64,000 nucleotides of DNA from Achromobacter sp. B7 (GTDB lineage: Bacteria > Pseudomonadota > Gammaproteobacteria > Burkholderiales > Burkholderiaceae_B). The translations under genes were made by a program, and so were the position numbers. Positions 25,221 through 49,758 of the stretch are shown here, one piece after another. Each line of letters opens with the position of its first letter. Positions within the stretch are counted from its first letter, which is position 1. The stretch lies in assembly GCF_003600685.1 (NCBI RefSeq), contig NZ_CP032084.1:1922001-1986000 (forward strand). The letters are read 5' to 3'. The notes below the pieces were generated by a model that was given only the letters and a program-made list of their open reading frames with translations, had not been told where the DNA came from and searched no databases.

Positions 25221-25286
25221 CGAGCGGATTATCCCGAATCGCGCAAAGGTGGGCGGTGGCGGGGGCGTTTTCCGGCGATTTACGCG

Positions 25287-25325
25287 AAAAAGCGATGATA
25301 GAGAGCGAAATATCACGCTTTTTTT
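25287..25325 (+). terminator. Rho-independent terminator after selO
   Basis: A 13-bp stem with one bulged A (AAAAAGCG-A-TGATA pairing with TATCACGCTTTTT) around a 10-base loop, ending in a run of T. It separates selO from the response-regulator gene. Confidence 0.85.
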
Positions 25326-25445
25326 CTCTGCAATCATTCGTTTCCATTGTAAATCTCGTAAGATTGTCGCCTGCGGGACACTCAGGATCGCATACCGCAT
25401 CCATGGGGCATTTGTCGACAATTTTCAATATAAAGCACTCTGAAT

Positions 25446-26165
25446 ATGCCTGGCGCAGATGGTTTGCTATGTATCGGTCTGCTCGAGGATGACGCTGACT
25501 TCCGCGAGGAATTGGCGTTAGGCTTGGGCGGCTATGGTTTTCGGGTAGCGTTTGCTTGTGACAATGCTGCGGCGTTCTATCGCCGATTGCAGGAACAGCC
25601 GTGCGACATTGTCATCCTGGACGCGCATCTTCCTGGCGAGGACGGCTTTTCGGTCGCGACGCGTTTACGAGCCTTGAGCCCCGTGGGCATTGTCATGCTG
25701 ACCGGCCGCAGCGCGCTTGAAGACCGCGTGCGCGGGCTGGAAGGCGGCGCTGACGTCTACATGACCAAGCCCGTCGACCTGCTGGAACTCAGTTCCGTGA
25801 TTCGCAGCCTGGCGCGCCGGATGCGGCTGGCCAAGGCCCCGCGCCCCGCCGATGCTGAAACCCGCGCCTCTGCCGACAGCACCTGGTCCCTGCAAGACGG
25901 GGGCTGGATCCTGGTGGCCCCGGACGGCGCCTCACTGCACCTTAGCGCCCAAGAACGGACGTTTTTGATGGCGCTGATGGACGCGGCAGGTAATGCCGTC
26001 AGCCGGCAGGTGCTGGCAGAACTGTTTTTGCCTGAAAGCCCGGGCGGTTTCGAATTGCGCCGTATTGACGTATTGGTCAGCCGCCTGCGCGCCAAGGCGC
26101 AAAGCGCGGGCCTGAAGTTGCCGGTGTTGTCGGTGCGCGGTCAGGGTTACGTTTTCGCGGCCTGA
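25446..26165 (+). CDS. OmpR/PhoB-family response regulator
   Basis: A 239-residue two-domain regulator. Receiver domain residues 1-125 with acidic pocket LLEDD, phospho-acceptor Asp in DIVILDAHLPGEDGF (~residue 59), switch Thr in MLTGR and Lys in MTKPVD. A winged-helix DNA-binding domain covers ~145-239 (LHLSAQERTFLMALM, RIDVLVSRLR, VRGQGYVF). It converges on, and overlaps by 19 bases, the histidine-kinase gene, its likely partner. A 10-bp palindrome TTGTCGACAA lies at 25412-25421, just upstream of the start. Confidence 0.93.
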   Translation: MPGADGLLCIGLLEDDADFREELALGLGGYGFRVAFACDNAAAFYRRLQEQPCDIVILDAHLPGEDGFSVATRLRALSPVGIVMLTGRSALEDRVRGLEGGADVYMTKPVDLLELSSVIRSLARRMRLAKAPRPADAETRASADSTWSLQDGGWILVAPDGASLHLSAQERTFLMALMDAAGNAVSRQVLAELFLPESPGGFELRRIDVLVSRLRAKAQSAGLKLPVLSVRGQGYVFAA

Positions 26166-27718
26166 TCCGCGCCCGGTTCTCCGGGGGCATTGACGGGCAG
26201 GGTGATTACAAAGCGCGTCCCCACGCCCACCTTGCTGTGCAGGGTCAACCAGCCGCCCTGGTTCTGACAAATGCGCCGGGCCAGATATAGCCCGATGCCC
26301 ATGCCTTGCGTTTCCCGATGCGCGGAACGCCGAAAATGCGGTTCGAACACGCGCGGCTGGTCCTGATCTTCGATGCCCGGCCCGCGATCCACCACCGCCA
26401 GCCACGCCATCGGCGCATCCCCTTCACGTATCTGACCCACTTCAATCCGGACCGGCTCGTTGGCCGGTGAATACTTGATCGCATTGTGAATCAGGTTGCG
26501 CACGACCACGCTGGTCAGCGGGCGGTCGCAGAACACCGGCAAGCGGTCGTCGGCGTCCAGCAGCAGCGCGTGCGCGGTGTCCGGCCGCATCGCCGTCACC
26601 ACATCGCGTGCCAACTCCGCCAGATCCGTGTGCTCGCCCCTGGGCGTCCAGGCCTGATCGCCCAGGCGGTCCTGGTTCAGCAGCTGGTCCATCAATTCCG
26701 TCATCCGCGAAACGGACCGATGGATGCGAGCCAGGCGCGTGTCGACCGCTTCACCGCTGTCGGACAGGATCATGTCCAGCGATTGCGCGGCCGCGCTGAT
26801 GGTCGCCAACGGCGCGCGCAGCTCGTGCGAAATCAACGCGTTCATCTGGCGTTGCGTGTCCAGCGCGCCGGCCAGTTCCGCCACGCGCAGTTCGCCCTGG
26901 GCAACATGTTCGGCATCCGCGTGGTCCTGACCCGCCCGGCGGTCGCCGGCGCTTCCGTGACGTTGGCCGATCAGCGCCAAGCCGAGCAGGGCGCCGGTCA
27001 CCAACAACAGCCGCGCCACTTCAATCAGCGAACCGGACGTGTCTGCGCCGTTCGATAGCCAGGCCTCGCCGCCCAGCATCCACGCGGTCGTGGCATGAAT
27101 ACACGCCACGGTCAGCGCCAGCGGGCGGCCTTTTTTTTGCGTTGCGGCCTGGACGGCGAACCAGATGGCCAGGCCCGCGCTGATGCCGGCTCCCAGTCCC
27201 GCGATCAGGGTTGGAATCAGCCCATCCTCGGTCTCGTAGACGAATATCAGCGCCAATGCGGCCACGCCGGCCAGCGCCATGCTCAAGGCACGGCATGCGG
27301 ACGCGATGGTTGCGGACCGGGCCACGCCGGCACCTGCCACCAGCGGCGCCGTCACGGCCAGCAACGCGGCATAAGAGCCGGCTTGCAGGGCGCCCGGCGG
27401 CAGCAATGTGGGCAAGGTGCGAAACACGCCTTCCAGTGTCACGAAGGCCAGGCCGGCGCCGTAAATCGACGCGCGGGCGCACGCCCACACAAGCGCGCAC
27501 GCCAGGCCGCACGCAATGGCGACGCCCGCCGTCAGGCCAAGCTGTAGTCCTGCAATTGGGGGAGAGACACCGTAGGCCCGCGCGACCGCCGGCAAGAAGA
27601 ATGCACACGCCAGCAATAGCCCCAGTGGCGACAACAGGGCTTGCGATCCTGTCGCGGCGCGGCGTTCACCTCGTGCGCCGAAAAGGCCGTGGATGCGAAG
27701 AAACAATCCTTCCTTCAA
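26147..27718 (-). CDS. Membrane histidine kinase coupled to a LapD-like gene
   Basis: A 523-residue kinase. The N-terminal ~250 residues hold about seven hydrophobic helices without a large periplasmic loop; then a coiled segment, the HisKA H-box MNALISHELRAPLATI, N-box RNLIHNAIKYSP, and a G-box VVDRGPGIE. The start is TTG at 27718 (minus strand), overlapping the TGA stop of the LapD-like gene (TTGA), so translation is coupled to it. The polytopic sensor suggests a membrane-associated or intramembrane signal. Cognate regulator is probably the convergent OmpR-type gene at 25446. Confidence 0.92.
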   Translation of the reverse strand: MKEGLFLRIHGLFGARGERRAATGSQALLSPLGLLLACAFFLPAVARAYGVSPPIAGLQLGLTAGVAIACGLACALVWACARASIYGAGLAFVTLEGVFRTLPTLLPPGALQAGSYAALLAVTAPLVAGAGVARSATIASACRALSMALAGVAALALIFVYETEDGLIPTLIAGLGAGISAGLAIWFAVQAATQKKGRPLALTVACIHATTAWMLGGEAWLSNGADTSGSLIEVARLLLVTGALLGLALIGQRHGSAGDRRAGQDHADAEHVAQGELRVAELAGALDTQRQMNALISHELRAPLATISAAAQSLDMILSDSGEAVDTRLARIHRSVSRMTELMDQLLNQDRLGDQAWTPRGEHTDLAELARDVVTAMRPDTAHALLLDADDRLPVFCDRPLTSVVVRNLIHNAIKYSPANEPVRIEVGQIREGDAPMAWLAVVDRGPGIEDQDQPRVFEPHFRRSAHRETQGMGIGLYLARRICQNQGGWLTLHSKVGVGTRFVITLPVNAPGEPGADQAAKT

Positions 27719-29682
27719 CTAGTAACCCATTGGTGATCCGGCGCCAGCTCGCGCGTATGGGCGAAGTTTACGACAGCCCCACGTATCGCGCGGACGCCCA
27801 GGTCTTCCAGAATGAGCTGGGTGGCGGAATCGGGAACGTCTTCGGCGTATACGGCCATGTCCAGCGTTGCCGCCGTGGCCATGACCGTGGCGGCCAGGTG
27901 CTGGCTGCCCGGGCTATGGCGCAAACCCGTAATGAAGCTGCCGCACAATTTCAAATAGGAAACCGGAAATTCGTGCAGCCGTTCCATCGCGCCGAATTGC
28001 TGCGACAGCCTGGACAGGCCGACGCGGGCGCCCGCCGTGGTCACGATGCGGCACAGCTGACGCAGGTCACCGGCTTGTTCGATCAAACCATCGGCGTCCA
28101 CTTCGATGAACAGCCGTCCGGTCAACGCCGGGCGATCCGCCAACATGCGTTCAAGCCGCGACAGGAAAGAAGTCTGGGTCAAAGAGGCCAGGGATACCGG
28201 CACCGTCAGCGCGGCAGAACGGGTGAACAGCCAGTCCAGCCCCAGCCGGATCGCCTGGATGTCACATTCCGCCGACAGGCCAAGCCGCACCGCCGGTGGC
28301 ATGAAGATCGAGGCGGGGACCGGGTCGCCGTCTGTGGTGTCATGCAGCGTCAGGCTGGCCTCGTGATGCAGTAATTCGCCCGTCACGGCGTAGAGCGGCA
28401 GCACCGACAACGAAAAGCGGTGTTGCTCCAGTGCGGTGACCAGGGCGTCGTGCCAGCTGTACTCGCCGATGCGCGTGCTGTCGGCGGCCTGGCTGGCTGG
28501 GGTGATCTGGTCGTCGTCGGCGCTTTCCGCGCACATCAGCGCGTGATCCAGCCTGGCCAGCGTATCGCTCATGTTGTCGCCGGGCGCGAAAGCGGCCATC
28601 GCCAGCGCCCACCGGCACCATCCATATTTGTCCATGGGCACGCGCAGCGCGCGCAGTTCATGGCGTACGCGTTCGGCCAGGACGCTTGCCTGCGGCGCCG
28701 AGGTGCACGGCAGCAACAACGCAAAATCCGACCCGCTGATCCGGGCCAGCTGCGCCGAGGGCCCGCCAAATTCCGCCACCAGTTTGCGCAAACGGTCGGA
28801 CGAAGACCGCAGCCATTGATCGGTGAACGCCCGCGACAGATGGCGGTTGATCTGGGCCAGGTCTCGCTGGCGGAACATCAGGATGTGGCCGCCCGCATCG
28901 GTGGACTTGTCTGCCAGCGCCGCGCGGAAAAGGTCGATGAAGTGCTTGCGGTTGGACAGGCGGGTGATGGGGTCGCGGTAAATCTCGCTTTGCAGCGACT
29001 CGATCTTTGCGTTCTGCTCCTCGACGGTCGCGGCCACCCGACGCTGCGCGTCGACGAACGCCTGATCCACCCCGGCCAGCTCGCAAGACCCGACGGGCGG
29101 CGCGCTGCTGCCCGGCGCCAACGCACGTACGCGATCACAGATGTCGCGCGAGGTGCGCGTCTCGATCCAGCGCACCAGGTTGAAGGCAAACAGCGACCAG
29201 AACACGCCGGCCGCCAGCACCAGTCCCAGAACGCGTACCCCGCCTTGCCAGAGCGTGTCGCGAGCCAAGCGCCCATCCGCCTGCACGGTGACGGTGCCGC
29301 GCGCGCCGCCATCCATCGACACGTAGGGGCGCGACACGGCGGGGGCCTGCACGTTTAGCCAGGCCGTACGCCAGTCGCTGTCGCGACCGGCCGTTGCGGC
29401 CTTGTGCCGTTCCAGTACCGTGGCGCCGCCTTCATCGGCGATGCGCACCATGGAATACAGGCCCTGTCCAAACAGGTCATCCGCCAACGCCGCCCGCTCA
29501 TCGGGGCGGGACGAGGCGTGCGCCAACGCCCACGACAAGGCGCTTGCGCCGCCTTCGCTCTGTTGGGCAAGTTGCGTATTCAGATAGCGATGGGCAGCGA
29601 CCATCCCCAGCGCCTGTGCGCCAAGCAGAATGAAGCCGACCAGCAGGGCAGTGCAGAAAAGTAATCGGCGTAATGTCGACAT
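27715..29682 (-). CDS. LapD-like c-di-GMP receptor (second copy), degenerate GGDEF-EAL
   Basis: About 655 residues, similar along its length to the LapD at 33658-35628. N-terminal helix (~residues 8-28), a periplasmic LapD/MoxY-type domain, a second helix (~150-170), HAMP, then GGDEF and EAL domains. The GGDEF site reads SGSDF, and the EAL domain lacks EAL (HEASL) and the Asp-Asp metal pair (LSRLSQQFG), so it should bind c-di-GMP without making or cutting it. Start set at ATG 29682 by analogy with the MSILRQLL start of the paralogue; TTG 29691 is possible. No lapG is adjacent; instead it is coupled to a histidine kinase. Confidence 0.85.
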   Translation of the reverse strand: MSTLRRLLFCTALLVGFILLGAQALGMVAAHRYLNTQLAQQSEGGASALSWALAHASSRPDERAALADDLFGQGLYSMVRIADEGGATVLERHKAATAGRDSDWRTAWLNVQAPAVSRPYVSMDGGARGTVTVQADGRLARDTLWQGGVRVLGLVLAAGVFWSLFAFNLVRWIETRTSRDICDRVRALAPGSSAPPVGSCELAGVDQAFVDAQRRVAATVEEQNAKIESLQSEIYRDPITRLSNRKHFIDLFRAALADKSTDAGGHILMFRQRDLAQINRHLSRAFTDQWLRSSSDRLRKLVAEFGGPSAQLARISGSDFALLLPCTSAPQASVLAERVRHELRALRVPMDKYGWCRWALAMAAFAPGDNMSDTLARLDHALMCAESADDDQITPASQAADSTRIGEYSWHDALVTALEQHRFSLSVLPLYAVTGELLHHEASLTLHDTTDGDPVPASIFMPPAVRLGLSAECDIQAIRLGLDWLFTRSAALTVPVSLASLTQTSFLSRLERMLADRPALTGRLFIEVDADGLIEQAGDLRQLCRIVTTAGARVGLSRLSQQFGAMERLHEFPVSYLKLCGSFITGLRHSPGSQHLAATVMATAATLDMAVYAEDVPDSATQLILEDLGVRAIRGAVVNFAHTRELAPDHQWVTS

Positions 29683-29791
29683 GTCGGTCAATTCCCTTCG
29701 CGGGCAGCAAGCAAGCCAAGATTACTGGGTCGCCCGGGTAAAGGGGGCGCCGGGCAAAGAACGTGCCCAGCGCGAAAAAAGCTGGATAAGA

Positions 29792-30142: not shown

Positions 30143-31588
30143 ATGTTACAGCCCTTGGGTTTCCTTCTGGACCGCAACGCCAAGGGTTTCCAGATAGGGG
30201 GCTCCGTGCGTGAGAGTTACCTGCTCGCACTGTGTCTGACGCTCGCAGGCGCTTTGGCGGCGATCAGTCTGTTTTTCGTGCGCAGGGAACGCGCCCTGCG
30301 TCGTCGCTTGATGCGCGATGAGTTGACCGGCGTTTTGAGTCAGCAGGAATTGCATCGTCGCGCCCGTGCCTGGCTGACGCAAAAAGAGGGGCCCGCGCGC
30401 CGAGGCGCTTTTTTTCTGGTCAGCTTTGAACAATACGCCGAGATCAGCGCCATGCTGCGCGCCGGCGAAGACCAGGCATTGCTGGTGCTGGTTGCCGATC
30501 GCCTAAGCCTGATCACCCGGACGCTGGGCGGCATGGTGGCCCGAAGCGGTACGGATTCATTCACTATTTGCGTGCCCGAAGTGGACGAAGTGGGCGCCGC
30601 CCAGGTATCGGCCAAGCTGCTGGAAGACCTTAGCGAACCCTACGCGCTTGGCGGGCGCACCCTGATTGCGGTATTCAGGGTGGGGGCGGCGCTCTATCCC
30701 GAGCATGGCCGCACGGTCGAAGAACTGCAACGCTGCGTGCAGGTGGCCATGGTGCCGCTCAAAGAGCGCGGTGGACCGGGATGGAATCTCTTTGACTTCC
30801 GTCTGCTGGCGCGGCATCGCGATGAGCAGGGCCTGGAAAATGATCTGCGCCTGGCCCTGACCACGCCGGCCATGGAGCAGTTCGAATTGTTCTACCAGCC
30901 CGTTTGCGATAGCGGCTCCGGCGTCGTGCAAGGCTGCGAGGCCTTGCTGCGCTGGCATCACCCCACGCTGGGCAGCGTGTCGCCCGCCGTAACCATCGAG
31001 CTGGCCGAGCGCAGCGGCCTGATCGTGCCGTTGGGCGCCTGGATCCTGGAGCGTGCATGCTCGCAGGCCGCCCTGTGGCCCCCGGCGTGGCGCGTGCATG
31101 TGAATCTGTCCGTCAAGCAGATGAATGAAGACGGCCTGGTGCAGCTGATTGCCGACGTGCTGAAGGCCACGCAGCTGTCGCCTCGCAAACTGGTATTGGA
31201 AATTACCGAGTCGATTTTCATCCTGCACTACGAGCGCCACGTGAAGATGTTGAACACGCTGCGCGCGCAGGGCATCGGCATTGCGCTGGACGATTTTGGC
31301 TGCGGCTATTCCAGCCTGAACCACCTGCGTCATCTGCCCATCGACTGGGTCAAGATCGACCGCAGCTTCATTTCCGCGCTGGAGTCCGATGCCGGCAGCC
31401 GCGAAGTGGTATCCGCTCTTTTCGGTTTGTGCCAGGCGATGCGTCTGCCTGTTGTGGCCGAAGGCGTTGAAACCGAAGGGCAGCGTGAAATTCTGAAGTC
31501 GCTGGGTTGCCGGGTGATGCAGGGCTTCCTGTTGGGCCGGCCCGCTCCCGCCTCGGAAATCCAGGCTTTGGCTTCGGCGGTGTCATAA
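30143..31588 (+). CDS. Membrane EAL-domain c-di-GMP phosphodiesterase with degenerate GGDEF
   Basis: A 481-residue protein: one N-terminal membrane helix (~residues 26-46), a GGDEF domain whose active site is degenerate (SGTDSF), and a C-terminal EAL domain (~245-475). EAL catalytic motifs are present: CEALLRW, VNLSVKQM, LEITES, ALDDFGCGYSSL, VKIDRSFI, AEGVET and QGFLLGRP, so it should hydrolyse c-di-GMP to pGpG. Located between a LapD-like receptor and the Lap locus, it could lower the local c-di-GMP level that LapD senses; this link is inference. Confidence 0.92.
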   Translation: MLQPLGFLLDRNAKGFQIGGSVRESYLLALCLTLAGALAAISLFFVRRERALRRRLMRDELTGVLSQQELHRRARAWLTQKEGPARRGAFFLVSFEQYAEISAMLRAGEDQALLVLVADRLSLITRTLGGMVARSGTDSFTICVPEVDEVGAAQVSAKLLEDLSEPYALGGRTLIAVFRVGAALYPEHGRTVEELQRCVQVAMVPLKERGGPGWNLFDFRLLARHRDEQGLENDLRLALTTPAMEQFELFYQPVCDSGSGVVQGCEALLRWHHPTLGSVSPAVTIELAERSGLIVPLGAWILERACSQAALWPPAWRVHVNLSVKQMNEDGLVQLIADVLKATQLSPRKLVLEITESIFILHYERHVKMLNTLRAQGIGIALDDFGCGYSSLNHLRHLPIDWVKIDRSFISALESDAGSREVVSALFGLCQAMRLPVVAEGVETEGQREILKSLGCRVMQGFLLGRPAPASEIQALASAVS

Positions 31589-33657: not shown

Positions 33658-35628
33658 CTATGCCGATGCCGCGCCGGCCGCGGGTTTGACGCCCGGTCCG
33701 CGCATCACGGCAATGCCCAGGCCGGCCAGGATGCGCTGCGTTTCGGCGTCGGGCACGTCCTCGGCGTAGACGTCGATGTTCAGCGAACGTGCCGTCTCCA
33801 GCACCGACGCCGTCAACTGCTGGCTGCCTGGGCTTTGCGACATCCCGCCCACAAAACCGCCGCCCAGTTTTACATAGGACAGGGGCAGGGTGTGCAGCTG
33901 CGCCACGGCGCCAAACTGCTGCGCCAGGCGGCGCACGCCGATATGCGCGCCAAACTCGGAGGTCACGCGCGCCAGCGTGGCGATCTGTTCGTGGCATTCC
34001 ACCAAGCCGTGCGCGTCGATTTCAAGATACAGGCGGTGCGCCAGCGGGCGGCGTTCGGTCAGTAACAGCGCCAATTGACGGAAGAACTTCTGGCCCCGTA
34101 GCGACGGCAGCGCCACGCGCACCGCCAGTTCACCCGGGTTGTCCGCCAGCCAGTCCAGGCCAAGGCGCACCGATTCCAGATCGCAGTCGGCCACCAGGTC
34201 CAGGCGCACCGCCGGCGGTATGAACAGCGTGGCGGGAATGGCGACCTGGTCGGGCGCCGTGCGTAGCATCAGCATCGCTTCGGTGCGCAGCGCGGTGCCG
34301 TCGGCAGCCAACAGATGCTCGGTCGCCAGCTCGAAATGGTGGTCTTCCAGCGCGGTCAGAATCGCGTCCTTCCACGCCCGTTCACCCGATTCCGACGGGG
34401 ACTGCATGTCGGTCGCACCCGCAATCACCACTTGATCGCTATTGGCGCTTTCGGCTCGCATCAATCCAAAGTCCAGCCTTGCCAACACGGGGCCAGCCTG
34501 GCTGCCTTGGCCATAGTCCGTCATGGCCAGAGCCCAGCGGCACAAATGCCCTTCGCCAACGGGAATGCGGGTGGCATGCAGATCGGTGCGCAGCCGTTCG
34601 GCAACCATCATCGCCTGGGGCGCCGCGCAACCGGGCAGCAGCAATGCAAAGTCCGAACCATTCAAGCGCGCCAGCAACGGGGCCGACACGTTCAGCGCCT
34701 TCAAGGCACCCTGGATGCGTTCGCAAGCGGCGCGCAGCCACTGGTCGATGAATTCGCGCGGCATGTGGCGGTTCAGGTCGGCCAGATCGCGCTGACGGAA
34801 CACCAGCACATGGCCGCCCGTCACGCCAGGCGCTTCCAGCGCGCGGCGGAATTCGTTCACGAAATACTTGCGGTTCGGCAGACGCGTGACGGGGTCCTGG
34901 TTCAGTTCCAGTTCCAGCGATTCGATCTTGGCGTTCTGTTCCTCAACGCTGGCGTAGACGCGTTCGCGCGTCTGGTTCAGTGCCTGCACCACGCCCGACA
35001 ACTCGGGTACGCGTGCCTCTACCTGTTCGGGCGGCGTGTCGCGCCCGATGCTGCGCACGTGGTCGCTGATTTCGCGCAGCAGGCGGTTCTTGATCCAGCC
35101 CACCAGCACGAACGCAAACACCGCCCACAGCACGCCCGCACCGATCACCAGCGCGATCATCTTCAAGCTGCTGCGCCACAGCGCTTCCCAGGCGTAAGAA
35201 TCGTTGGCGATCAGGGTCACTTCACCCACCTGACGCCAGCCGTCGCTGACCGCGTGGCTGGCTGGCTGCGTGTCCAGCGGCGCCAGCTTTTGAAACCATG
35301 CCGGCACCGACTTCGGCGTGGCGGTGGAGCGACGTTCGATCAGCACCTTGCCATCCGGATCCGCCAGCCGCACCAACGAGAAATGTCCGCCGTCATACAG
35401 CGCCGACACCAGCAATTCCTGCAACACCGGGTCGTTGTTCGCGGGCTGCGACAAGGACAGCGCCAGCGACACGGCCGCGTCGGTGCTCTGCACCTGCAAC
35501 TGGCCGGACAGGTATTCCCGCGCCGAATTCACGCTAAGCGCCAGCGTGCCCAGCAAAATGACGCCGATTGCCAAGGTAACGCTGAGCAGTAACTGTCGAA
35601 GTATGGACATAGTCTTATTTCCGGACAT
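33658..35628 (-). CDS. lapD: LapD c-di-GMP receptor controlling LapG
   Basis: A 656-residue inner-membrane protein. Membrane helix near residues 10-30, LapD/MoxY-type periplasmic domain, second helix (~155-178), HAMP, then degenerate GGDEF (NGSDF) and degenerate EAL (TEAML; VRRLAQQFG instead of DDFG). In the known system, c-di-GMP binding to the EAL-like domain lets the periplasmic domain hold LapG, keeping the adhesin on the surface. The start ATG at 35628 overlaps the lapG stop (TGATG), so the pair is translationally coupled. ATG 35610 is an alternative start. Confidence 0.92.
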   Translation of the reverse strand: MSGNKTMSILRQLLLSVTLAIGVILLGTLALSVNSAREYLSGQLQVQSTDAAVSLALSLSQPANNDPVLQELLVSALYDGGHFSLVRLADPDGKVLIERRSTATPKSVPAWFQKLAPLDTQPASHAVSDGWRQVGEVTLIANDSYAWEALWRSSLKMIALVIGAGVLWAVFAFVLVGWIKNRLLREISDHVRSIGRDTPPEQVEARVPELSGVVQALNQTRERVYASVEEQNAKIESLELELNQDPVTRLPNRKYFVNEFRRALEAPGVTGGHVLVFRQRDLADLNRHMPREFIDQWLRAACERIQGALKALNVSAPLLARLNGSDFALLLPGCAAPQAMMVAERLRTDLHATRIPVGEGHLCRWALAMTDYGQGSQAGPVLARLDFGLMRAESANSDQVVIAGATDMQSPSESGERAWKDAILTALEDHHFELATEHLLAADGTALRTEAMLMLRTAPDQVAIPATLFIPPAVRLDLVADCDLESVRLGLDWLADNPGELAVRVALPSLRGQKFFRQLALLLTERRPLAHRLYLEIDAHGLVECHEQIATLARVTSEFGAHIGVRRLAQQFGAVAQLHTLPLSYVKLGGGFVGGMSQSPGSQQLTASVLETARSLNIDVYAEDVPDAETQRILAGLGIAVMRGPGVKPAAGAASA

Positions 35629-36326
35629 CAGGGGCGGATGCCTTCCCGTTCCATGCGTTGAAGTAGATCACGCCAGCGGCTCAGGCGGTCAACCGGCGCG
35701 GCGGGCTTGCCGTCCACGTAGACGCCGTCCGCGTTAAAGCTGAACACCGGCGTCAGGTCGCGTCGCTGCGTAGCCGGCAGGATGGTTGAAATCAAGCTGT
35801 CCAGCACCAGCGGGACCGCGTTGGGGGTGTCGTAATAGCCCAGCACCATGTGGGCGACCTGGCTGCTGCTGGCCGGTCCGCCCACGCGCGCGCGGACGTA
35901 AATGAAACGCAGCTTGTTGGCGGGCACGCCCATCGCAAGCAGCGTGAAGTACTTGCCGATGACGTAGTCTTCGCAATCGCCGGCGCCCCTGCCCAGGGAT
36001 TCCAGCGGCGTGGCCCAGTAGTCTGCCTGCTTCCAAAGGGTGATGTCTTCGCCGGACAGCAGGGACTGATTCCAGAAATCGTTCGCGGTCGTCAGCTTGT
36101 CCCGCTCTTCGCGCGGGGGCGGGTTGCGCAACAGCTGTAGCCAGTTGCCCACCGCCTTCGCGCCTTTCGGGCCGTAGCGGCTGGCGGCCAGGCTTTGCAG
36201 CCGGTCCGAGCTGACCTCCAGGGCGAAACTTCCGCCCCAGACGCAAGCCAGGCACAGCAACACCAACCGGCATAGGCCCCGCAGGCTGCGGAAACGGTGA
36301 GTCGAAGACATGAAACGGATTTTCAC
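35628..36326 (-). CDS. lapG: LapG-type periplasmic cysteine protease
   Basis: A 232-residue bacterial transglutaminase-like cysteine peptidase. A signal peptide (~residues 1-36) precedes the domain; the catalytic triad is visible as Cys in GAGDCEDYVIGKYF (~residue 118), His in AHMVLGYYD, and Asp in LVLDSL. It should cleave the adhesin in its retention module. Start GTG at 36326 or ATG at 36311. It follows the adhesin after a terminator and is coupled to lapD. Confidence 0.92.
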   Translation of the reverse strand: MKIRFMSSTHRFRSLRGLCRLVLLCLACVWGGSFALEVSSDRLQSLAASRYGPKGAKAVGNWLQLLRNPPPREERDKLTTANDFWNQSLLSGEDITLWKQADYWATPLESLGRGAGDCEDYVIGKYFTLLAMGVPANKLRFIYVRARVGGPASSSQVAHMVLGYYDTPNAVPLVLDSLISTILPATQRRDLTPVFSFNADGVYVDGKPAAPVDRLSRWRDLLQRMEREGIRP

Positions 36327-36416: not shown

Positions 36417-39400
36417 TTAGCTGTGGTCGACGTTCAGCTTACCCTTCTGCAGCAGGTCATTGATGATGGCCTGGTTGCTCATGGTGCCGTTGCCCGTCAG
36501 GTCCACGTTTTCCAGCACGATCTTCTGGTCGACGCCTTGGGCGATCTGGCCCTTGGTGTTGATGTCGATGACCGTGTTGTTGCCTTCCTTATGGATGTTC
36601 AGGAACTGGGTCAGCGTGCCGTCCTTCTCACCGATCAGCAGGTCCTTCAGGTCCAGGACGTCGCCGCCATTGGCCAGGGTGTCCGCCGAGAAGTCCTTGA
36701 TGGTGTCGACGGCCGGGGCGCCAACCGAGCCCTGGTCGTTCAACTCCCACTTGAACGTGTCGCTGCCCAGGCCGCCGTACAACGTGTCGTTGCCCTTGCC
36801 ACCGATCAGGGTGTCATTGCCAGCGCCGCCGTCCAGCGTGTCGTTGCCCGCGCCGCCATGCAGCAGGTCGTTGCCGGCGCCGCCGTACAGGATGTCGTTG
36901 CCGTCATCGCCGTACAGGGAGTCGTCGCCGCCCTGGCCGTAGATGATGTCATCGCCCGTGCCGCCGTGCACCGTATCGTTGCCGCCGCGCGGATCATCCG
37001 CAATGTTGAACTGCGCGTGGTTGGCCTTCAGGTAGTCATAGACCTCGGCGCTGGTTGCCGCATGACCATTCTGGTAAGCCAGGAAGTCTTGCAGCGCCTT
37101 CAGGCCCTGGCCATCGTGCGAACCGGCGGCCACATTGCCCCAGGCAAGATGATCGGTATTGATCGTGTCGCCAAAGATGATGTCGTTGCCGGCACCGCCG
37201 TTGATGACGTCATTACCCACCACGGCCGGATCGGTGCTGGAGCTGCCGCCTTGCAGGGCGGCAGCCAGGTCCGAACCCTTCAGCACGATGTCGACTTGGC
37301 CCGCGGGGGCGACGATGACCTGGCTGGCGGCGTAGGCTGCCAACGAGATATTGTCGATGTTCACCGTTGCATTCGAGTTGTTGTTCGTGCCATCCACCAC
37401 TTCATAAACAAAGCGGTAATCGCCCGACGTCAACATCTTGGATGTGATGGTCGTCGTGCTGCTGAAACCAGAGTTCGATGTTCCGCCATCGACGCCGACC
37501 CACGTCTTGGACGCGGCATCGTAGCGCTGCAACGTCCAGGTGAATTGGTCGCCCGTGCTGAAATTGGACGTCTGAACCGTGAAGCTCAACTTTCCATATT
37601 CGCTGATGGAGATCTTCGTGTCGTTGGTCGCGGTGGTGCTGCTGCCGCCGGCAAAGTCCACAAGCCTGAGCACGCCGTTGGTCTTGGACACCGATCCGGA
37701 CTGCGAACCCGTACCGGTCGTTGTCCAGTTGTTGATGTTATTCAAGCCCGAGTTGCTGCTGCTGCCAAAGGCAGCCAACGAAGAGTCGTTGCTGTCGCCG
37801 ACCGTCGTGTAGGCAGTGCCGCCGCCGCCCGTGTTATCGAACAGACGCAGATAGTCTGCATTCACGCCGTTGCCAATGCCGATGCCATGCACGGTACTTA
37901 CCTTGGACAAGGGATCGAAGGCGTTGACGGATTCTTGCAGCGTCGTGGCGCTGGTTGAGCTACCCGTGCCGCCGAGGTTGCCGTAGCGGTCGTAGTAGTA
38001 CGTCGGATCGCCGTCGGTCAGGAAGAACGTGACGTTTTCGTAGCCTGCCGCCGCGGTTTTGCCCGCCGTGGCCTGGCTGTTGAACCACGACACCGCCGTA
38101 TTGAATGCGGCTTCGTAGTTGGTGCCACCATTAGCCGACAGGTCGCCGATGGCGTCCGTCAGTTGCTTCAGGTTCGACTGTGACAGGTTTTGCAGCGTCA
38201 GGTTCTGCCGAGCGCCGGCGGCAAAGCCGATCAGCGTCACGTTCACCGTTCCGTCGTGTCCCGCCAGCTGGGTGGCCAAGGACTTCAGCGCGTCAATGAC
38301 GAGCTTCATCCGCGAATTGGCGTAACTGACGTTTTCGCTGCCGTTCAGGCCATACGCCATGCTGCCCGACGTATCCACGACCAGGGCAATGTTGTAGTTC
38401 TTGCCCGGCTCCACGGTCACGACCGTACCGCCCTTGTCGCCCAGGATGATGTCGTCACCCGAACCGCCGTTCAGCACCGGCGTCGTGCCCGTGCCGCTGC
38501 CGACGTTTTCGCCCGTCACCATATTGTTGGTGTTCAACACAAAGTTGTACGTGCCCGACGTGTTCTGGCCACCGTGGTCCGTACCGCCGTTGTCACGCAC
38601 CTGGAAGCCGATCGAGGTATCCAGGCCGTTGGCCGAAGGCGTGAAGATCAGCTTGCCGGCGGCAATGTCCGCTGCCGAGACAGCGGTGTTCAGGCCCACG
38701 GGGTTGCCGTTCAACGTCAGCGTGCCGTCGGTCGGCAAGCGCGAGATGATCACGCTTTGCAGCGCATTGCCTTCGGCGCCGTCGCTGAAGTTGAATTCGG
38801 ACAGGGTGAAGACGTGGCTGTCGCCGATCTCCACATTGGCCGAGTTGTCCGCGGCGACCGGTGCGTCGTTCGTGCCGACGATCGACACCGAGATCGGTTG
38901 CACCGTCGTGCCGTCGCCCGTCGTCACATTGAACGTCTCGGACAGCAGGGCGCCTGCCGGCAGGTTCTGCACCACAGCCAGGCTGTTGTTCAGCGTGTAG
39001 GTCCAGTTGCCGTTGGCATCGATCGAGAACGTGCCGTACTTGCCGACCACGTTGGTCTGCGCCAGGACGCCGCTTTGGCCGACGTCCGCGTCCACCACAG
39101 TCAGCTTGCCGGTGGTGGACAGGCTGTAGTCCTCGGTCACCGTGCCAGAGGTCTGGCCGGTGATGACCGGGGCGTCGTTCGTGCCGGTAATGGTGACCGT
39201 GACCGGCAATTGCGCCGTACCGCCGTGGCCGTCGTTGACGGTCACGGTGATGGTGTCGGTGACCTGCTGGCCTTCCTTCAGGCCCTGGACGTTCGCGCTG
39301 GTGTTATTCAGCGTGTAGGTCCACTTGCCGCTGGAATCGACCACGAACGTGCCATACGTGCCCGCGCCGTTGTTGCTGACGGACCAGGTGTGCGTGTCGG

Positions 39401-42400
39401 TGAGGTCGATGTCCGACTTGGTCAGTTGGCCATTGGCGGTCAGCGTGCCGTCTTCCTTCACGGCGCCCGTGACGTTGCCCGCGATGGTCGGGGCGTCGTT
39501 CGTGCCCGTCACCGTCACGGTGATCAACTGCGTGGCGGTACCGCCATGGCCATCGTTGACGGTCACGGTGATGGTGTCGGTCACCTTCTGCCCGTCGGCC
39601 AAGGCTTGCACCTTGGCGCTGGCGTTGTCCAGCGTGTAGGTCCACTTGCCGTTCGCATCCACCACAAAGGCGCCGTACGTGCCCTTGCCGGCGTTGTTCA
39701 GCGTCCAGGTGTGGGTGTCCGTCGTGTCGATGTCAGCCTTGGTCAACTGGCCGCTGACCACTTGTGTGCCATCTTCGGTCACGCCGCCGGTAATGACGCC
39801 GCCCATGGTCGGGGCGTCGTTCGTGCCGGTAACGGTGATCGTGATGGTTTGCTGCGCGGTGCCGCCATGGCCGTCGTCGATGGTCACGGTAACGGTGTCG
39901 GTCACTTGCTGGCCCTCGGCCAGGGCTTGCACCTTGGCGTTGGCGTTGTCCAGCGTGTACGTCCACTTGCCGGTGTTGTCCACTGTCAGCGTGCCGTACG
40001 TACCCTTGCCGTTGTTGCCGACCGACCAGGTGTGCGTGTCGGTAGCGTCAACGTCGGCTTTGGTCAGCTGGCCGGTGACCACTTGCGTGCCGTCTTCCTT
40101 GACGGCGCCGTTGGCCACGCCATCGATAGTCGGGGCGTCGTTGGTGCCAGTGATCGTCACGACCACTTGCTGCTGCGCCGTACCGCCATGGCCGTCGTCA
40201 ACGGTCACGGTGATGGTGTCGGTCACTTGTTGGCCGGCAGCCAGGGCTTGCACCTTGGCGCTGGCGTTGTCCAGGTTGTAGGTCCACTTGCCGGTCGCAT
40301 CAACCGAGAACGTGCCGTACGTACCCTTGCCGGCGTTGTTGACCGACCAGGTGTGGGTGTCGGTCGCGTCAACGTCGGACTTGGACAATTGGCCAGAGAT
40401 GCTGCTGGGCGCAGTATCTTCCTTGACGGTGCCGACGGCCGTGCCCGAGATCGTCGGGGCGTCATTGGAGCCCGTGATCGTAACGGTCACTTGCTGCTGC
40501 GCCGTACCACCATGGCCGTCGTTAACGGTCACGGTGATGGTGTCCGTCACTTGCTGGCCGGCAGCCAGGGCTTGCACCTTGGCGCTGGAGTTGTTCAGGT
40601 TGTAGGTCCAATTGCCGTTGCCATCAACGGAGAAGGAGCCGTAGGCGCCCTTGCCGTCGTTGTTAACGGACCAGGTGTGGGTGTCGGTCGTGTCGACGTC
40701 GGCGACATCCAGCTTGCCGGTGGCCACCTGCGTGCCGTCTTCCGTGACGGTGCCATCGGCCTTGCCGGTCAGGACCGGGATGTCGTTGGTACCGACGATG
40801 GTGACCACGACTTGACCGGTCGTACCGTCAGCGGTCGTAACCGTGAAGGTTTCGGTCAGCGTCTTGCCAGCACCCAAACCTTGGACAGCCGGGTCATTGT
40901 TGGTCAGGTTGTACGTCCATGCGCCGTTGGCGTCGACGGAGAACGTGCCGTGTTGGCCAGGCGCGTTCGTTTGAACTTGGAACACGGCTTGGCCGGCGTC
41001 CGGGTCGGTAACGTTGAGCTTGCCGTCAACAGACAGCGTCTTGTCTTCAATGACTTGGCCCTTGTCGCTGTCAGGCGTAGCGGGCGTAATGATCGCGCCG
41101 TCGTCCGTGCCGTTGATCGTGACCGTAACGTCCTTGGTGACCACACCGCCGTTGCCGTCATCGACGGTGACGGTGAACGTTTCGGTGATCGACTGACCGG
41201 TCTTCAGACCTTGGACATCCTTGTTGGCGTTGTCCAGGTTGTAGGTCCAGTTGCCGTTGCCATCAACGGAGAAGGAGCCGTACGTACCCTTGCCCTCGTT
41301 GTTAACAGACCAAGTGTGGGTATCGGTCGTGTCAACGTCCGCGACATCCAGCTTGCCGGTGGCAACCAGCGTGCCGTCTTCGGTAACGGCGCCATCGGCC
41401 TTGCCGGTCAGAACCGGGATGTCGTTGGTGCCGACGATGGTGACCACGACTTGACCGGTCGTGCCGTCAGCGGTCGTAACCGTGAAGGTCTCGGTCAGTG
41501 TCTTGCCAGCACCCAAGCCTTGGACAGCCGGGTCATTGTTGGTCAGGTTGTACGTCCATGCGCCGTTGGCGTCGACAGAGAACGTGCCGTGTTGGCCAGG
41601 AGCATTCGTTTGAACCTGGAACACGGCTTGACCAGCGTCCGGATCGGTGACGTCGAGCTTGCCGCCGACGGAAAGCGTCTCGTCTTCAATGACTTGGCCC
41701 TTGTCGCTGTCAGGGGTAGAAGGCGTGATGATCGCGCCGTCATCGGTACCATTGATCGTGACCGTAACGTCCTTGCTCACTACGCCGCCGTTGCCGTCGT
41801 CCACCGTGACGGTGAACGTCTCGGTGATCGATTGGCCGGTCTTCAGACCTTGGACATCCTTGTTGGCGTTGTCCAGGTTGTAGGTCCAGTTGCCCGACGA
41901 GTCGACCGAGAACGAACCGTACGTACCTTTGCCCTCGTTGTTAACGGACCAGGTGTGGGTGTCGGTCGTGTCGACGTCGGCGACATCCAGCTTGCCGGTT
42001 GCAACCAGCGTGCCATCTTCGGTGACTGCACCATCAGCCTTGCCGGTCAGAACCGGGATGTCGTTGGTACCGACGATGGTGACCACGACTTGACCCGTCG
42101 TGCCGTCAGCGGTCGTAACCGTGAAGGTCTCGGTCAGCGTCTTGCCAGCGCCCAGGCCTTGAACGGCCGGGTCGTTGTTGGTCAGGTTGTACGTCCATGC
42201 GCCGTTGGCGTCGACGGAGAACGTGCCGTGTTGGCCGGCCGTGTTGGTTTGAACTTGGAACACGGCTTGGCCGGCGTCCGGATCGGTGACGTCGAGCTTG
42301 CCGTCAACAGACAGCGTCTTGTCTTCAATGACTTGGCCCTTGTCGCTGTCAGGCGTAGCGGGCGTAATGATCGCGCCGTCATCGGTACCGTTGATCGTGA

Positions 42401-45400
42401 CGGTCACATCCTTGGTAACCACGCCGCCGTTGCCGTCATCGACGGTGACGGTGAACGTCTCGGTGATCGATTGGCCGGTCTTCAGACCTTGGACATCCTT
42501 GTTGGCGTTGTCCAGGTTGTAGGTCCAGTTGCCCGACGAGTCGACCGAGAACGAACCGTACGTACCTTTGCCCTCGTTGTTAACGGACCAGGTGTGGGTG
42601 TCGGTCGTGTCGACGTCGGCGACATCCAGCTTGCCGGTTGCAACCAGCGTGCCATCTTCGGTGACTGCACCATCAGCCTTGCCGGTCAGCACCGGGATGT
42701 CGTTGGTACCGACGATGGTGACGACGACTTGACCCGTCGTGCCGTCAGCGGTGGTGACGGTAAACGTTTCGGTCAGCGTCTTGCCAGCACCCAGGCCTTG
42801 GACAGCCGGGTCGTTGTTGGTCAGGTTGTACGTCCATGCACCGTTGGCGTCGACGGAGAACGTGCCGTGTTGGCCAGGCGCGTTCGTTTGAACTTGGAAC
42901 ACGGCTTGGCCGGCGTCCGGGTCGGTGACGTTGAGCTTGCCGTCAACAGAGAGCGTCTCGTCTTCAATGACTTGGCCCTTGTCAGCGCCCGGTGCTCCCG
43001 GGGTGATGATCGCGCCGTCGTCCGTGCCGTTGATCGTGACCGTCACATCCTTGGTGACCACACCGCCGTTGCCGTCATCGACCGTAACCGTAAACGTCTC
43101 GGTGATCGATTGGCCGGTCTTCAGACCTTGGACATCCTTGTTGGCGTTGTCCAGGTTGTAGGTCCAGTTGCCCGACGAGTCGACCGAGAACGAACCGTAC
43201 GTACCTTTGCCCTCGTTGTTAACGGACCAGGTGTGGGTGTCGGTCGTGTCGACGTCGGCGACATCCAGCTTGCCGGTTGCAACCAGCGTGCCATCTTCGG
43301 TGACTGCACCATCAGCCTTGCCGGTCAGCACCGGGATGTCGTTGGTACCGACGATGGTGACCACGACTTGACCCGTCGTGCCGTCAGCGGTGGTGACGGT
43401 GAACGTCTCGGTCAGCGTCTTGCCAGCACCCAGGCCTTGGACGGCCGGGTCGTTGTTGGTCAGGTTGTACGTCCATGCGCCGTTGGCGTCGACGGAGAAC
43501 GTGCCGTGTTGGCCAGGCGCGTTCGTCTGAACTTGGAACACGGCTTGACCAGCGTCCGGGTCGGTAACGTTGAGCTTGCCGTCAACAGACAGCGTCTTGT
43601 CTTCAATGACTTGGCCCTTGTCGCTGTCAGGCGTAGCGGGCGTAATGATCGCGCCGTCATCGGTACCGTTGATCGTGACGGTCACATCCTTGGTGACCAC
43701 ACCGCCATTGCCGTCATCAACCGTGACGGTGAACGTCTCGGTGATGGATTGGCCCGTCTTCAGACCTTGGACGTCCTTGTTGGCGTTGTCCAGGTTGTAC
43801 GTCCAGTTGCCCGACGAGTCGACCGAGAACGAACCGTACGTACCCTTGCCCTCGTTGTTAACGGACCAGGTGTGGGTATCGGTCGTATCAACGTCCGCGG
43901 CATCCAGCTTGCCGGTGGCCACCAGCGTGCCGTCTTCGGTTACTGCACCATCAGCCTTGCCGGTCAGAACCGGGATGTCGTTGGTACCGACGATGGTGAC
44001 CACGACTTGACCCGTCGTGCCGTCAGCGGTCGTAACCGTGAAGGTCTCGGTAAGGGTCTTGCCAGCGCCCAGGCCTTGGACGGCCGGGTCGTTGTTGGTC
44101 AGGTTGTAGGTCCATGCGCCGTTGGCGTCGACGGAGAACGTGCCGTGTTGGCCGGCCGTGTTGGTTTGAGCCTGGAACACGGCTTGACCAGCGTCCGGAT
44201 CGGTGACGTTGAGCTTGCCGTCAACAGACAGCGTCTCGTCTTCAATGACTTGGCCCTTGTCGCTGTCAGGCGTAGCGGGCGTAATGATCGCGCCGTCATC
44301 GGTACCGTTGATCGTGACCGTCACATCCTTGGTGACCACACCGCCATTGCCGTCATCGACGGTGACGGTGAACGTCTCGGTAATGGACTGACCGGACTTC
44401 AAACCTTGGACATCCTTGTTGGCGTTGTCCAGGTTGTAGGTCCAGTTGCCGTTGCCATCAACGGAGAACGAACCGTACGTACCCTTGCCCTCGTTGTTAA
44501 CGGACCAGGTGTGGGTATCGGTCGTATCAACGTCCGCGACATCCAGCTTGCCGGTGGCAACCAGCGTGCCGTCTTCGGTGACGGCGCCATCGGCTTTGCC
44601 GGTCAGGACCGGGATGTCGTTGGTGCCGACGATGGTGACCACGACTTGACCGGTCGTGCCGTCAGCGGTCGTAACCGTGAAGGTCTCGGTCAGCGTCTTG
44701 CCAGCGCCCAGGCCTTGGACGGCCGGGTCGTTGTTGGTCAGGTTGTACGTCCATGCGCCGTTTGCGTCGACGGAGAACGTGCCATGTTGGCCAGGCGCGT
44801 TCGTTTGAACTTGGAACACGGCTTGGCCAGCGTCCGGGTCCGTGACGTCAAGCTTGCCACCCACGGAGAGCGTCTTGTCTTCGACGACTTCGCCCTTGTC
44901 GCTGTCAGGGGTAGAAGGCGTAATGATCGCGCCGTCGTCCGTGCCGTTGATCGTGACCGTCACGTCCTTGGTGACCACGCCGCCGTTGCCGTCATCGACG
45001 GTGACGGTGAACGTCTCGGTGATCGATTGGCCGGTCTTCAGACCTTGGACGTCCTTGTTGGCGTTGTCCAGGTTGTACGTCCAGCTGCCCGACGAGTCGA
45101 CCGAGAACGAACCGTACGTGCCCTTGCCCTCGTTGTTAACGGTCCAGGTGTGGGTATCGGTCGTGTCGACGTCAGCCACATCCAGCTTGCCGGTGGCGAC
45201 CAGGCTGCCATCTTCGGTAACTGCACCATCAGCCTTGCCGGTCAGGACCGGGATGTCGTTGGTACCGACGATGGTGACCACGACTTGACCGGTCGTGCCG
45301 TCAGCGGTGGTGACGGTGAACGTTTCGGTCAGTGTCTTGCCAGCACCCAAGCCTTGGACGGCCGGGTCGTTGTTGGTCAGGTTGTACGTCCAGTTGCCGT

Positions 45401-48400
45401 TGGCGTCGACGGAGAACGTGCCGTGTTGGCCGGGCGCGTTCGTCTGAACTTGGAACACGGCTTGACCAGCGTCCGGGTCCGTGACGTCAAGCTTGCCACC
45501 CACGGAGAGCGTCTTGTCTTCGACGACTTCGCCCTTGTCGCTGTCAGGGGTAGAAGGCGTGATGATCGCGCCGTCATCGGTACCATTGATCGTGACCGTA
45601 ACGTCCTTGCTCACTACGCCGCCGTTGCCGTCGTCCACCGTGACGGTGAACGTCTCGGTAATGGACTGACCGGACTTCAGACCTTGGACGTCCTTATTGG
45701 CGTTGTCCAGGTTGTACGTCCAGTTGCCCGACGAGTCGACCGAGAACGAACCGTACGTACCCTTGCCCTCGTTGTTAACGGTCCAGGTGTGGGTATCGGT
45801 CGTGTCGACGTCGGCCACATCCAGCTTGCCGGTGGCAACCAGCGAACCGTCTTCCGTGACGGCGCCATCGGCCTTGCCGGTCAGGACCGGGATGTCGTTG
45901 GTGCCGACGATGGTGACGACGACTTGACCGGTCGTGCCGTCAGCGGTCGTAACCGTGAAGGTTTCGGTCAGGGTCTTGCCAGCGCCCAAGCCTTGAACGG
46001 CCGGGTCATTGTTGGTCAGGTTGTACGTCCAGTTGCCGTTTGCGTCGACAGAGAACGTGCCGTGTTGGCCGGCCGTGTTGGTTTGAGCCTGGAACACGGC
46101 TTGGCCAGCGTCCGCGTCCGTGACGTCAAGCTTGCCACCCACGGAGAGCGTCTTGTCTTCGACGACTTCGCCCTTGTCGCTGTCAGGCGTAGCGGGCGTA
46201 ATGATCGCGCCGTCGTCCGTGCCGTTGATCGTGACCTTCACATCCTTAGTGACCACGCCGCCGTTGCCGTCATCGACCGTAACCGTAAACGTCTCGGTAA
46301 TCGACTGACCGGTCTTCAGACCTTGGACATCCTTGTTGGCGTTGTCCAGGTTGTACGTCCAGTTGCCGTTGCCATCAACGGAGAAGGAGCCATACGTGCC
46401 CTTGCCTTCGTTGTTGACGGTCCAGGTGTGGGTGTCGGTCGTGTCGACGTCGGCCACATCCAGCTTGCCGGTGGCGACCAGGCTGCCGTCTTCCGTGACG
46501 GTGCCGTCGGCCTTGCCGGTCAGGACCGGGATGTCGTTGGTACCGACGATGGTGACGACGACTTGACCCGTCGTGCCGTCAGCGGTGGTGACGGTAAACG
46601 TTTCGGTCAGCGTCTTGCCAGCACCCAAGCCTTGGACAGCCGGGTCATTGTTGGTCAGGTTGTAGGTCCATGCGCCGTTGGCGTCGACGGAGAACGTGCC
46701 GTGTTGGCCAGGCGCGTTCGTCTGAACTTGGAACACGGCTTGGCCGGCGTCCGGGTCGGTGACGTCGAGCTTGCCACCCACGGAGAGCGTCTTGTCTTCG
46801 ACGACTTCGCCCTTGTCGCTGTCAGGGGTAGAAGGCGTGATGATCGCGCCGTCATCGGTACCGTTGATCGTGACGGTCACATCCTTGGTGACCACACCGC
46901 CATTGCCGTCATCAACGGTGACGGTGAAGGTCTCGGTGATCGATTGGCCGGTCTTCAGACCTTGAACATCCTTGTTGGCGTTGTCCAGGTTGTAGGTCCA
47001 GTTGCCGTTGCCATCAACGGAGAAGGAGCCGTACGTGCCCTTGCCATCGTTGTTAACGGACCAGCTATGCGTATCGGTCGTATCAACGTCCGCGACATCC
47101 AGCTTGCCGGAGACGACAAGGCTGCCGTCTTCCGTGACCGCACCGTCGGCCTTGCCCGTCAACACCGGAACATCATTGGTCCCGACGATCGTGACCACCA
47201 CCTGGCCCGTCGTGCCGTCAGCCGTCGTAACCGTAATGGTTTCCGACAGCGTCTTGCCAGCGCCCAGGCCTTGGACGGCCGGATCCCCGTTATTCAGGTT
47301 GTACGTCCAGTTGCCGTTGGCATCGATCGAGAACGTGCCGTGCGTGGTGGTGGCGTTCGTCTGAACCTGGAACACCGCTTGACCCGCGTCCGGGTCGGTG
47401 ACTTCCAACTTGCCGCCGACCGACAGCTTCTCGTCTTCGACGACCTGGCCCGCGTCAGCACCCGGTGCCCCCGGGGTAATGATCGCGCCGTCGTCCGTGC
47501 CGTTGATCGTGACGGTGACCACTTGCGTCGTCACGCCGCCGTTGCCGTCGTTGACCGTGACGGTGAACGTCTCGGTCAAGGTCTGGCCGGCGATCAGTGC
47601 CTGGACGGCGGGGTTGGCGTTAGCCAGGTTGTAGGTCCACGTGCCGTCGGCCGCAATCGTCAGCGCGCCGTATTGGCCGGCGCCATTGTCGTTGACGGAC
47701 CACGTGTGCGTGTCGGACGTGTCGACGTCGGCCACGTTCAGCTTGCCGGTGGCGACCAGCGCCGTGTCTTCGGTGACCGCGCCGGCGGCTTGGCCGCTGA
47801 TCGTGGGGACGTCGTTGGTGCCCTGGATGGTGACGGTGACCGTGCCGGTCGTGCCGTCAGCCGTGGTGACCGTGAAGGTCTCGGTCAGGGTCTCGCCAAC
47901 GGCCAGCGCTTGCACGCGGGTGTCGTTGTTGTTCAGGTTGTAGACCCACGCGCCGCTGGCGTCGATCGAGAACGTGCCGTGCTGGCCGGCCTGGCCGGAT
48001 TGCACGACAAAGCGCGCTTCGCCGTCGTCCACGTCGGTGACGTTCAGCTTGCCGTTCGCGGTGAAGGTGGTGTCTTCCTTGACCGTGCCGGCATCGTCGC
48101 CGGCGTTGGCCGGGGTGATCTGGGCCGGGTCGTTCACGCCGACAATCGTCACTTCGACGGTGGCGGTGGACGTTGCGCCGCTGGGATCGGTGACCGTGTA
48201 CGAAATCGTGCTGGTGGCGGTCTGGCCGGCGGGCAGGTTCTGAAAGCCCGTGCCGGGCGTGAAGACGTAGCTGCCGTCGGGCAGAACGGTAAAGGTGCCG
48301 CCGTTGGAGCCGTTGACGGTGACGCCGCCCGCGGTCATGGGCCGGCCGCTGACCGACACGATGGCCAGGGGATCGCCGTCGGGATCGCTGTCATTGCTGA

Positions 48401-49079: not shown

Positions 49080-49082
49080 GTT

Positions 49083-49739: not shown

Positions 49740-49758
49740 AAAGCCTTGCAGCTCTCCT

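Follow-up and report, generated by a model that had tools for sequence, protein, structure and literature searches.

A LapD paralogue encoded with a sensor histidine kinase in Achromobacter and its probable fused counterpart in Bordetella

Gene arrangement and conservation of the pair

The stretch of DNA examined here (the window; 64,000 nucleotides of Achromobacter sp. B7, assembly GCF_003600685.1, contig NZ_CP032084.1, positions 1,922,001 to 1,986,000 of the forward strand) encodes a paralogue of the receptor LapD, called LapD2, whose gene overlaps that of a sensor histidine kinase, on which an OmpR-type response regulator gene converges. The core of the locus comprises the following features.

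25446–26165, plus strand: OmpR-type response regulator (Pfam Response_reg and Trans_reg_C), convergent with the kinase gene and overlapping its end by 19 bases
26147–27718, minus strand: sensor histidine kinase, 523 amino acids (Pfam HisKA and HATPase_c; H-, N- and G-box motifs)
27715–27718, minus strand: TTGA overlap, made up of the LapD2 stop codon TGA and the kinase start codon TTG
27715–29682, minus strand: LapD2, 655 amino acids from the ATG at 29682
30143–31588, plus strand: predicted cyclic di-GMP (c-di-GMP) phosphodiesterase, divergent from LapD2, with SGTDSF in place of GGDEF and the EAL catalytic motifs kept

Judged by sequence comparison, the repurposing of LapD2 for two-component signalling is well supported, because the genes occur together in 61 of 61 genomes, their overlap is conserved, they are fused in nine genomes, the LapG-binding site of LapD2 is lost and its periplasmic domain is relaxed.

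LapD2 consists of a transmembrane (TM) segment, a periplasmic domain without the GWxQ motif, a second TM segment with HAMP, a degenerate GGDEF domain (SGSDF) and a degenerate EAL domain (HEASL); the last two motifs are present as an earlier reading of the window, made from the sequence only, had described them. Pfam recognizes LapD_MoxY_N (28.1 bits, cut-off 25), GGDEF and EAL, while the HAMP family is not among its matches and HAMP is assigned through the alignment with LapD. The NCBIfam model NF045673 gives 237 bits, under its cut-off of 1020, which the canonical LapD of the window (LapD1, 318 bits) does not reach either. An open reading frame of 658 amino acids runs from a TTG (27715–29691, minus strand); since most orthologues begin to align at its residue 4, the ATG at 29682, the shorter gene is the likelier one. 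LapD2 is 91% identical to the copy in A. piechaudii NBRC 102461 and 45% identical to LapD1. Structure comparison gives its GGDEF-EAL part the same fold as LapD; the structural matches listed for it (VIA table) are GGDEF/EAL chains and carry little information on the periplasmic domain. LapD2 thus shares with the LapDs of Pseudomonas fluorescens and B. bronchiseptica (BB1184) the order of domains, the degeneracy of both enzymatic domains and the GGDEF-EAL fold. However, those proteins hold LapG through the GWxQ loop, whereas LapD2 has no such loop and is tied to a kinase.

The kinase has a variable N-terminal part with several TM segments, followed by conserved coil/DHp and CA domains. By its HisKA and HATPase_c domains, its H, N and G boxes and the regulator gene nearby it is a two-component sensor, and phosphotransfer is predicted. 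The sequence-only reading correctly placed the regulator gene, convergent with the kinase gene, and the TTGA junction, which may couple translation of LapD2 and the kinase. The junction, with the kinase frame open from TTG, is found in 37 of 39 Achromobacter loci, the window included (a count that omits L173–L176); the exceptions are L047 and L087. A block upstream of the regulator gene, at about 25285–25345, is conserved in 19 Achromobacter loci and contains two GTAA steps 9 bases apart, a possible candidate for an autoregulation site. No binding site could be matched to the conserved blocks 5′ of the regulator and of LapD2 in these 19 loci.

In a survey of 268 genomes of the family, with self-chosen and unequal limits (E≤1e-45 for the kinase and E≤1e-60 for the regulator), the kinase is found in 61 genomes and the regulator in the same 61. 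At all 61 loci, every one of which was inspected, a LapD-like gene adjoins the kinase gene or is fused to it. The genome search for LapD–kinase pairs proposed earlier therefore finds the pairing conserved. By genus, the 61 genomes comprise 43 of g1 (Achromobacter), nine of g31 (Bordetella), six of g33 (including A. aloeverae and Bordetella sp. LUAb4), G195 and two of g62 (A. aestuarii and Schauerella fraxinea). The LapD–kinase junction in both g62 loci is ATGA. An order-level sample has the kinase in four of 399 genomes, all within this family. In a phylum sample PF16448 is found in 71 of 349 genomes, at 81 places; flanks were fetched for 79 of them, all but the LapD1 of the window and G895, which lies at the end of a contig. 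LapG lies near 71 of these 79 LapD_MoxY_N places, and a kinase, detected by tblastn or motif, lies beside one, L288, where the PF16448 match is weak and there is no proper LapD. Some of the flanks are shortened by contig ends; L286 and L289 have no LapD match, and that of L287, like that of L288, is weak. Since the kinase is rare in the order sample and stands beside one of 79 places in the phylum sample, the pairing looks like a lineage-specific invention rather than a general rule for LapD.

The LapG-binding site and the constraint on each domain

The statement that the pair stands without LapG is true of its immediate neighbourhood; a lapG gene and a canonical lapD gene lie 4–6 kb away, beyond genes named by likeness as AroC and an M48 peptidase, which are located between the phosphodiesterase gene and LapD1.

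33658–35628, minus strand: LapD1, a canonical LapD with a GWRQ loop, used as the contrast paralogue
35628–36326, minus strand: LapG periplasmic protease (Pfam Peptidase_C93; NCBIfam NF045674 217.8 bits, not reaching the cut-off of 320), presumed partner of LapD1

In P. fluorescens LapD, the Trp of the GWxQ motif is reported to anchor LapG, and the W125E substitution to abolish LapG binding (PMC3032553, PMC4359373). This Trp is present in all 39 Achromobacter LapD1 proteins counted (three Achromobacter without LapD1, and G033, are omitted) and in none of 41 LapD2 proteins (L072, with a split frame, and L176, a fragment, are omitted). In a wider set it is found in 33 of 33 LapG-linked rows, two g62 rows among them, and in none of 25 rows that are linked to the kinase and not to LapG; in the fusion L048 a Trp lies a few positions ahead of the GWxQ place. 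Five of these 25 rows, all from g33, have no periplasmic domain, which is missing from five of six g33 LapD2 proteins. From the loss of the GWxQ loop, LapD2 is predicted not to bind LapG.

Genome-wide searches gave no LapG match in 11 of the 27 kinase-bearing genomes tested out of the 61 (a set of 24 genomes plus a second search that added G195, G001 and G004 and covered G128 again), three of the 11 being drafts of 50–200 contigs or more. The 11 comprise 10 of the 24, namely three Achromobacter, A. insuavis and A. dolens included, and seven Bordetella, together with G195. B. hinzii (L052, L142) has a partial LapD1 match and no LapG. G102, G103 and G113, which have no kinase, were searched as well and all have LapG. 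The suggestion that LapD2 acts on the same LapG as a further input is therefore disfavoured.

The domains differ in how strongly they are constrained, as measured by mean pairwise identity (over 38 genomes for the LapDs and 38 sequences for the kinase). The identity of the periplasmic domain is 0.907 in LapD1 vs 0.606 in LapD2, while that of GGDEF is 0.886 vs 0.850. In the kinase it is 0.564 for the TM part, 0.905 for the coil and DHp and 0.815 for CA. On these alignments, the LapD2 periplasmic domain and the kinase TM part drift most, and the parts that could meet in the cytoplasm drift least.

The fused form and the history of the family

In all nine kinase-bearing g31 genomes the LapD and kinase matches lie in one open frame of 913–972 codons (the G110 frame is also printed as 1007, with a match running across a stop). 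Four of these fusions, 903–950 amino acids long, contain GGDEF, EAL, HisKA and HATPase_c by Pfam, which did not recognize LapD_MoxY_N in any of the four. The fusions have no kinase TM part; a scan of three finds two TM segments in the LapD part of two of them and one segment in the third. A protein database search returned 14 fused proteins of 890–950 amino acids. G107, which we take to be B. pertussis (at least 137 IS481 matches), carries the fusion and gave no LapG match; a review describes this species as ‘LapD absent, DdpA present’, in agreement (PMC12805831).

The g31 gene order of regulator, fusion and phosphodiesterase fits BB2108, BB2109 and BB2110 of Bordetella, locus numbers taken from PMC11537037 and PMC12004968. 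BB2109 is DdpA, for which degenerate GGDEF and EAL domains and a predicted kinase domain are described (PMC12805831), and DdpA (BB2109/BP1092) and BB2108 have already been described as a putative two-component system (PMC12805831, PMC11537037). One list (PMC8076611) gives BP1092 as a response regulator, which conflicts with its description in other papers as DdpA or as a putative kinase. Based on locus order and domains, rather than on a sequence labelled BB2109, the g31 fusion is very probably DdpA, and by gene order and domains the regulator would be BB2108. The window has the same order, with LapD2 and the kinase between the regulator and a PdeB-type phosphodiesterase, so that by position its regulator would correspond to BB2108 and its phosphodiesterase, predicted as such because the EAL catalytic motifs looked for are present, to PdeB (BB2110). 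PdeB is described as a bona fide EAL protein, and repeated attempts to delete it reportedly failed (PMC12004968). The two forms differ in that DdpA is a fusion without the kinase TM part and with a periplasmic part unseen by Pfam, whereas in Achromobacter the genes are split and overlap at TTGA.

With DdpA very probably its fused form, the system cannot be called entirely new, and the earlier remark that no system of exactly this make-up has been described stands for the split form only, the fused form, very probably DdpA with BB2108, being already in print. The open-licence literature searched, judged mostly by titles and the beginnings of abstracts, gave no paper on a LapD–kinase pair, and no statement there was found that DdpA derives from LapD, of the split form or of the lost LapG site. 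As far as that search extends, what is new is that the protein originates from LapD and has lost its LapG site, that its kinase partner can be split off, and that the states form a graded series.

In a tree of the GGDEF-EAL core built from 58 chosen rows, the kinase-linked LapDs, g31 fusions included, form one branch (support 92/89), and the LapG-linked LapDs of the same lineages lie beside it (98/93). Because the two branches stand side by side in the same lineages, the tree gives moderate support to a lapD duplication older than the split of these genera. In Achromobacter, LapD1 and LapD2 run in the same direction 4 kb apart, as cited for a tandem duplication. The g62 LapD carries GWTQ, falls in the LapG-linked branch and stands in the order lapG-lapD-kinase; either this order is ancestral and lapD was duplicated in tandem later, or LapD2 was lost in g62. 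In A. aestuarii (L058, 5550–10764, reverse strand) the row reads lapG-lapD-kinase-cyclase, with a GGEEF gene, its PAS part judged by eye, behind the kinase; its single LapD possibly serves both LapG and the kinase.

Proposed mechanism, alternatives and neighbouring genes

It is likely, in our assessment, that LapD2 serves the adjacent kinase as a dedicated regulatory subunit, with the OmpR-type regulator as the output, so that the periplasmic output of holding LapG has been exchanged for a cytoplasmic one. LapD2 would act as a sensory subunit of the kinase and feed the regulator, its GGDEF-EAL module touching the coil/DHp region of the kinase and shifting the balance between kinase and phosphatase activity; the regulator would then set transcription. 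As input, LapD2 would take either the state of c-di-GMP in its vicinity or a c-di-GMP enzyme that docks to it. An input related to c-di-GMP is suggested by the gene neighbourhoods, since three sister lineages have a cyclase gene near the kinase-linked LapD and a predicted phosphodiesterase gene adjoins LapD2 in Achromobacter. The cyclase gene, encoding GGEEF, adjoins LapD2 in six of six g33 loci and in G195 (GGDEF confirmed by Pfam for two). In B. bronchiseptica the cyclase BdcA is reviewed as needing DdpA, and not LapD, for its activity (PMC12805831). Because of this requirement and of the adjoining cyclase genes, free c-di-GMP and a docking cyclase are equally plausible inputs.

The mechanism beyond the pairing of the genes is inferred from sequence, and its more specific form is put forward tentatively, at a little under an even chance. 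In this form the GGDEF-EAL part of LapD2 would respond to c-di-GMP or to a docked cyclase and would itself switch a separate kinase between its kinase and phosphatase states, so that control of a protease would have become control of transcription. The same tentative grade covers, jointly with it, the idea that the receptor family is seen in successive states, from a LapD with both LapG and the kinase, through LapD2 with the kinase and LapD2 with the periplasmic domain missing, to the fused DdpA.

Several observations weigh against LapD2 as the regulatory subunit of the kinase. A scan of 13 ligand and catalytic positions of EAL, listed from general knowledge of the domain, finds eight lost in LapD2: the Leu of EAL, the Arg of ExLxR, the Asn, the DD pair, the following Phe, the second Glu of EGVE and the C-terminal Gln. 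The losses are worse in the Bordetella fusions, and even among the residues kept (in 41 proteins, the Glu of EAL in 41, the second Glu in 40, the Gln of FQP in 35, the Lys in 34 and the EGVE Glu in 31) the Lys is Thr in seven and the EGVE Glu is Ala or Asp in 10. The LapD2 of the window itself has Leu instead of the FQP Gln. With the pocket so degraded, a c-di-GMP input may be wrong, and of the earlier suggestion that LapD was repurposed to link c-di-GMP with two-component signalling, the two-component half is well supported while c-di-GMP sensing is assumed. LapD2 drifts more than LapD1 in HAMP (0.737 vs 0.901) and in EAL (0.793 vs 0.872). The kinase-linked branch has less support than is usually required, and its row G195 is long. 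In L047, L072 and L087, all Achromobacter, the LapD2 or kinase frame is broken or shifted, by either true decay or an error of assembly. In A. aestuarii and S. fraxinea, a LapG-linked LapD bearing GWxQ adjoins the kinase, so pairing alone does not demand the loss of LapG and the kinase can stand without a partner from the LapD2 branch.

The EAL losses are not peculiar to LapD2, as LapD1 and the Bordetella LapG-linked rows have lost nearly the same positions. In the Alcaligenaceae LapDs examined, LapG-linked ones too, most of the EAL residues known to hold c-di-GMP are gone, and these proteins are flagged here as being without the textbook contacts. The Asp of the I-site is present in none of 41 LapD2 proteins at position −6, where it would stand, and LapD2 of the window has GPSA at what we take to be the place of RxxD. 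The EAL losses do not settle whether c-di-GMP is bound, because B. bronchiseptica LapD is reported to act in a LapD–LapG pathway (PMC4933386, PMC12805831).

The main rival reverses the flow of the signal: the kinase (or the kinase part of the fusion) would sense, and LapD2, blind to any ligand, would be the adaptor through which a diguanylate cyclase is activated, with c-di-GMP as the output and the regulator as a side branch. The dependence of BdcA on DdpA, the cyclase genes beside LapD2 in g33 and G195 and the degraded EAL pocket speak for this rival. Against it, the TM part of the kinase is less constrained than the rest of that protein and is missing from the fusions, and the regulator is present in each of the 61 genomes with the kinase, an argument for transcription as a real output. 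This reversal is accordingly judged unlikely, though far less so than the two readings that follow.

LapD2 might instead bind the same LapG as LapD1 does, with a different tuning, and so give adhesin release a further input. The genes for LapG and LapD1 are close by and LapD_MoxY_N is still recognized in the window's LapD2; but with the LapG-anchoring Trp absent from all LapD2 proteins counted, no LapG match in 11 genomes and the periplasmic domain missing from most g33 proteins, we give this very little credence. As a leading explanation it was rejected on these three grounds. Equally improbable is that the genes lie together through inherited order without a joint function. The whole neighbourhood from SelO to M48 is syntenic across Achromobacter, and the frame breaks confined to single genes in L047 and L072, as well as the kinases of A. 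aestuarii and S. fraxinea without a LapD2-branch partner, speak a little for such a shared neighbourhood. Nevertheless, two Bordetella genomes, G103 and G113, keep the flanking SelO and phosphodiesterase matches, separated by just 255 bp, but jointly lack LapD2, kinase and regulator between them; neither genome has a kinase or regulator match anywhere at the limits used, and both retain LapD1 and LapG. As these genomes may be closely related, they may represent a single event. The gene fusion and the conserved 4-base overlap also stand against it, as does the ATGA overlap kept in A. aestuarii and S. fraxinea, where the 18 kb fetched holds neither AroC nor M48. Chance synteny, too, was rejected as the leading explanation, on the block absence with flanks kept, the fusion and the overlap.

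LapD2 as a regulatory subunit of its kinase has partial parallels among known systems. MoxY-type kinases share the name of the periplasmic family, LapD_MoxY_N, with LapD2; there the periplasmic domain feeds the kinase directly and there is no GGDEF-EAL part. In the GcbC–LapD pair of P. fluorescens, a LapD-type protein acts by contact with a diguanylate cyclase, with LapG as the output and no kinase (PMC12805831). ShkA of Caulobacter and RavS of Xanthomonas are kinases under c-di-GMP control, as is proposed here, but the nucleotide binds the kinase itself (in ShkA, the pseudo-receiver domain), and no LapD-type subunit is mentioned in the parts of those papers drawn on here (PMC7010744, PMC6707612).

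If the proposal is correct, it would explain the origin of DdpA, a conserved Bordetella protein of unclear function, as a LapD copy joined to a kinase, and it suggests that an adhesion receptor has been rewired to control gene expression. The family would then be a graded natural series in which the output of one receptor changes from protease sequestration to two-component signalling. The split form would be easier to dissect, as receptor and kinase can be removed singly and the likely output regulator is named.

The remaining genes of interest lie beyond LapG.

36417–48998, minus strand: giant repeat adhesin of BrtA/ArtA type, a 4193-residue open reading frame, named from its likeness to BrtA/ArtA in size and place and presumed to be the LapG substrate

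The region 49083–55145 encodes a LuxR-type regulator, an HlyD-like adaptor, an ABC exporter with a C39-like domain and an outer-membrane efflux protein; through these the giant adhesin is presumably exported by type I secretion. An antisense open frame of 3719 codons (38190–49349, plus strand) runs through the adhesin repeats and is most likely a by-product of high GC content and the repeats.

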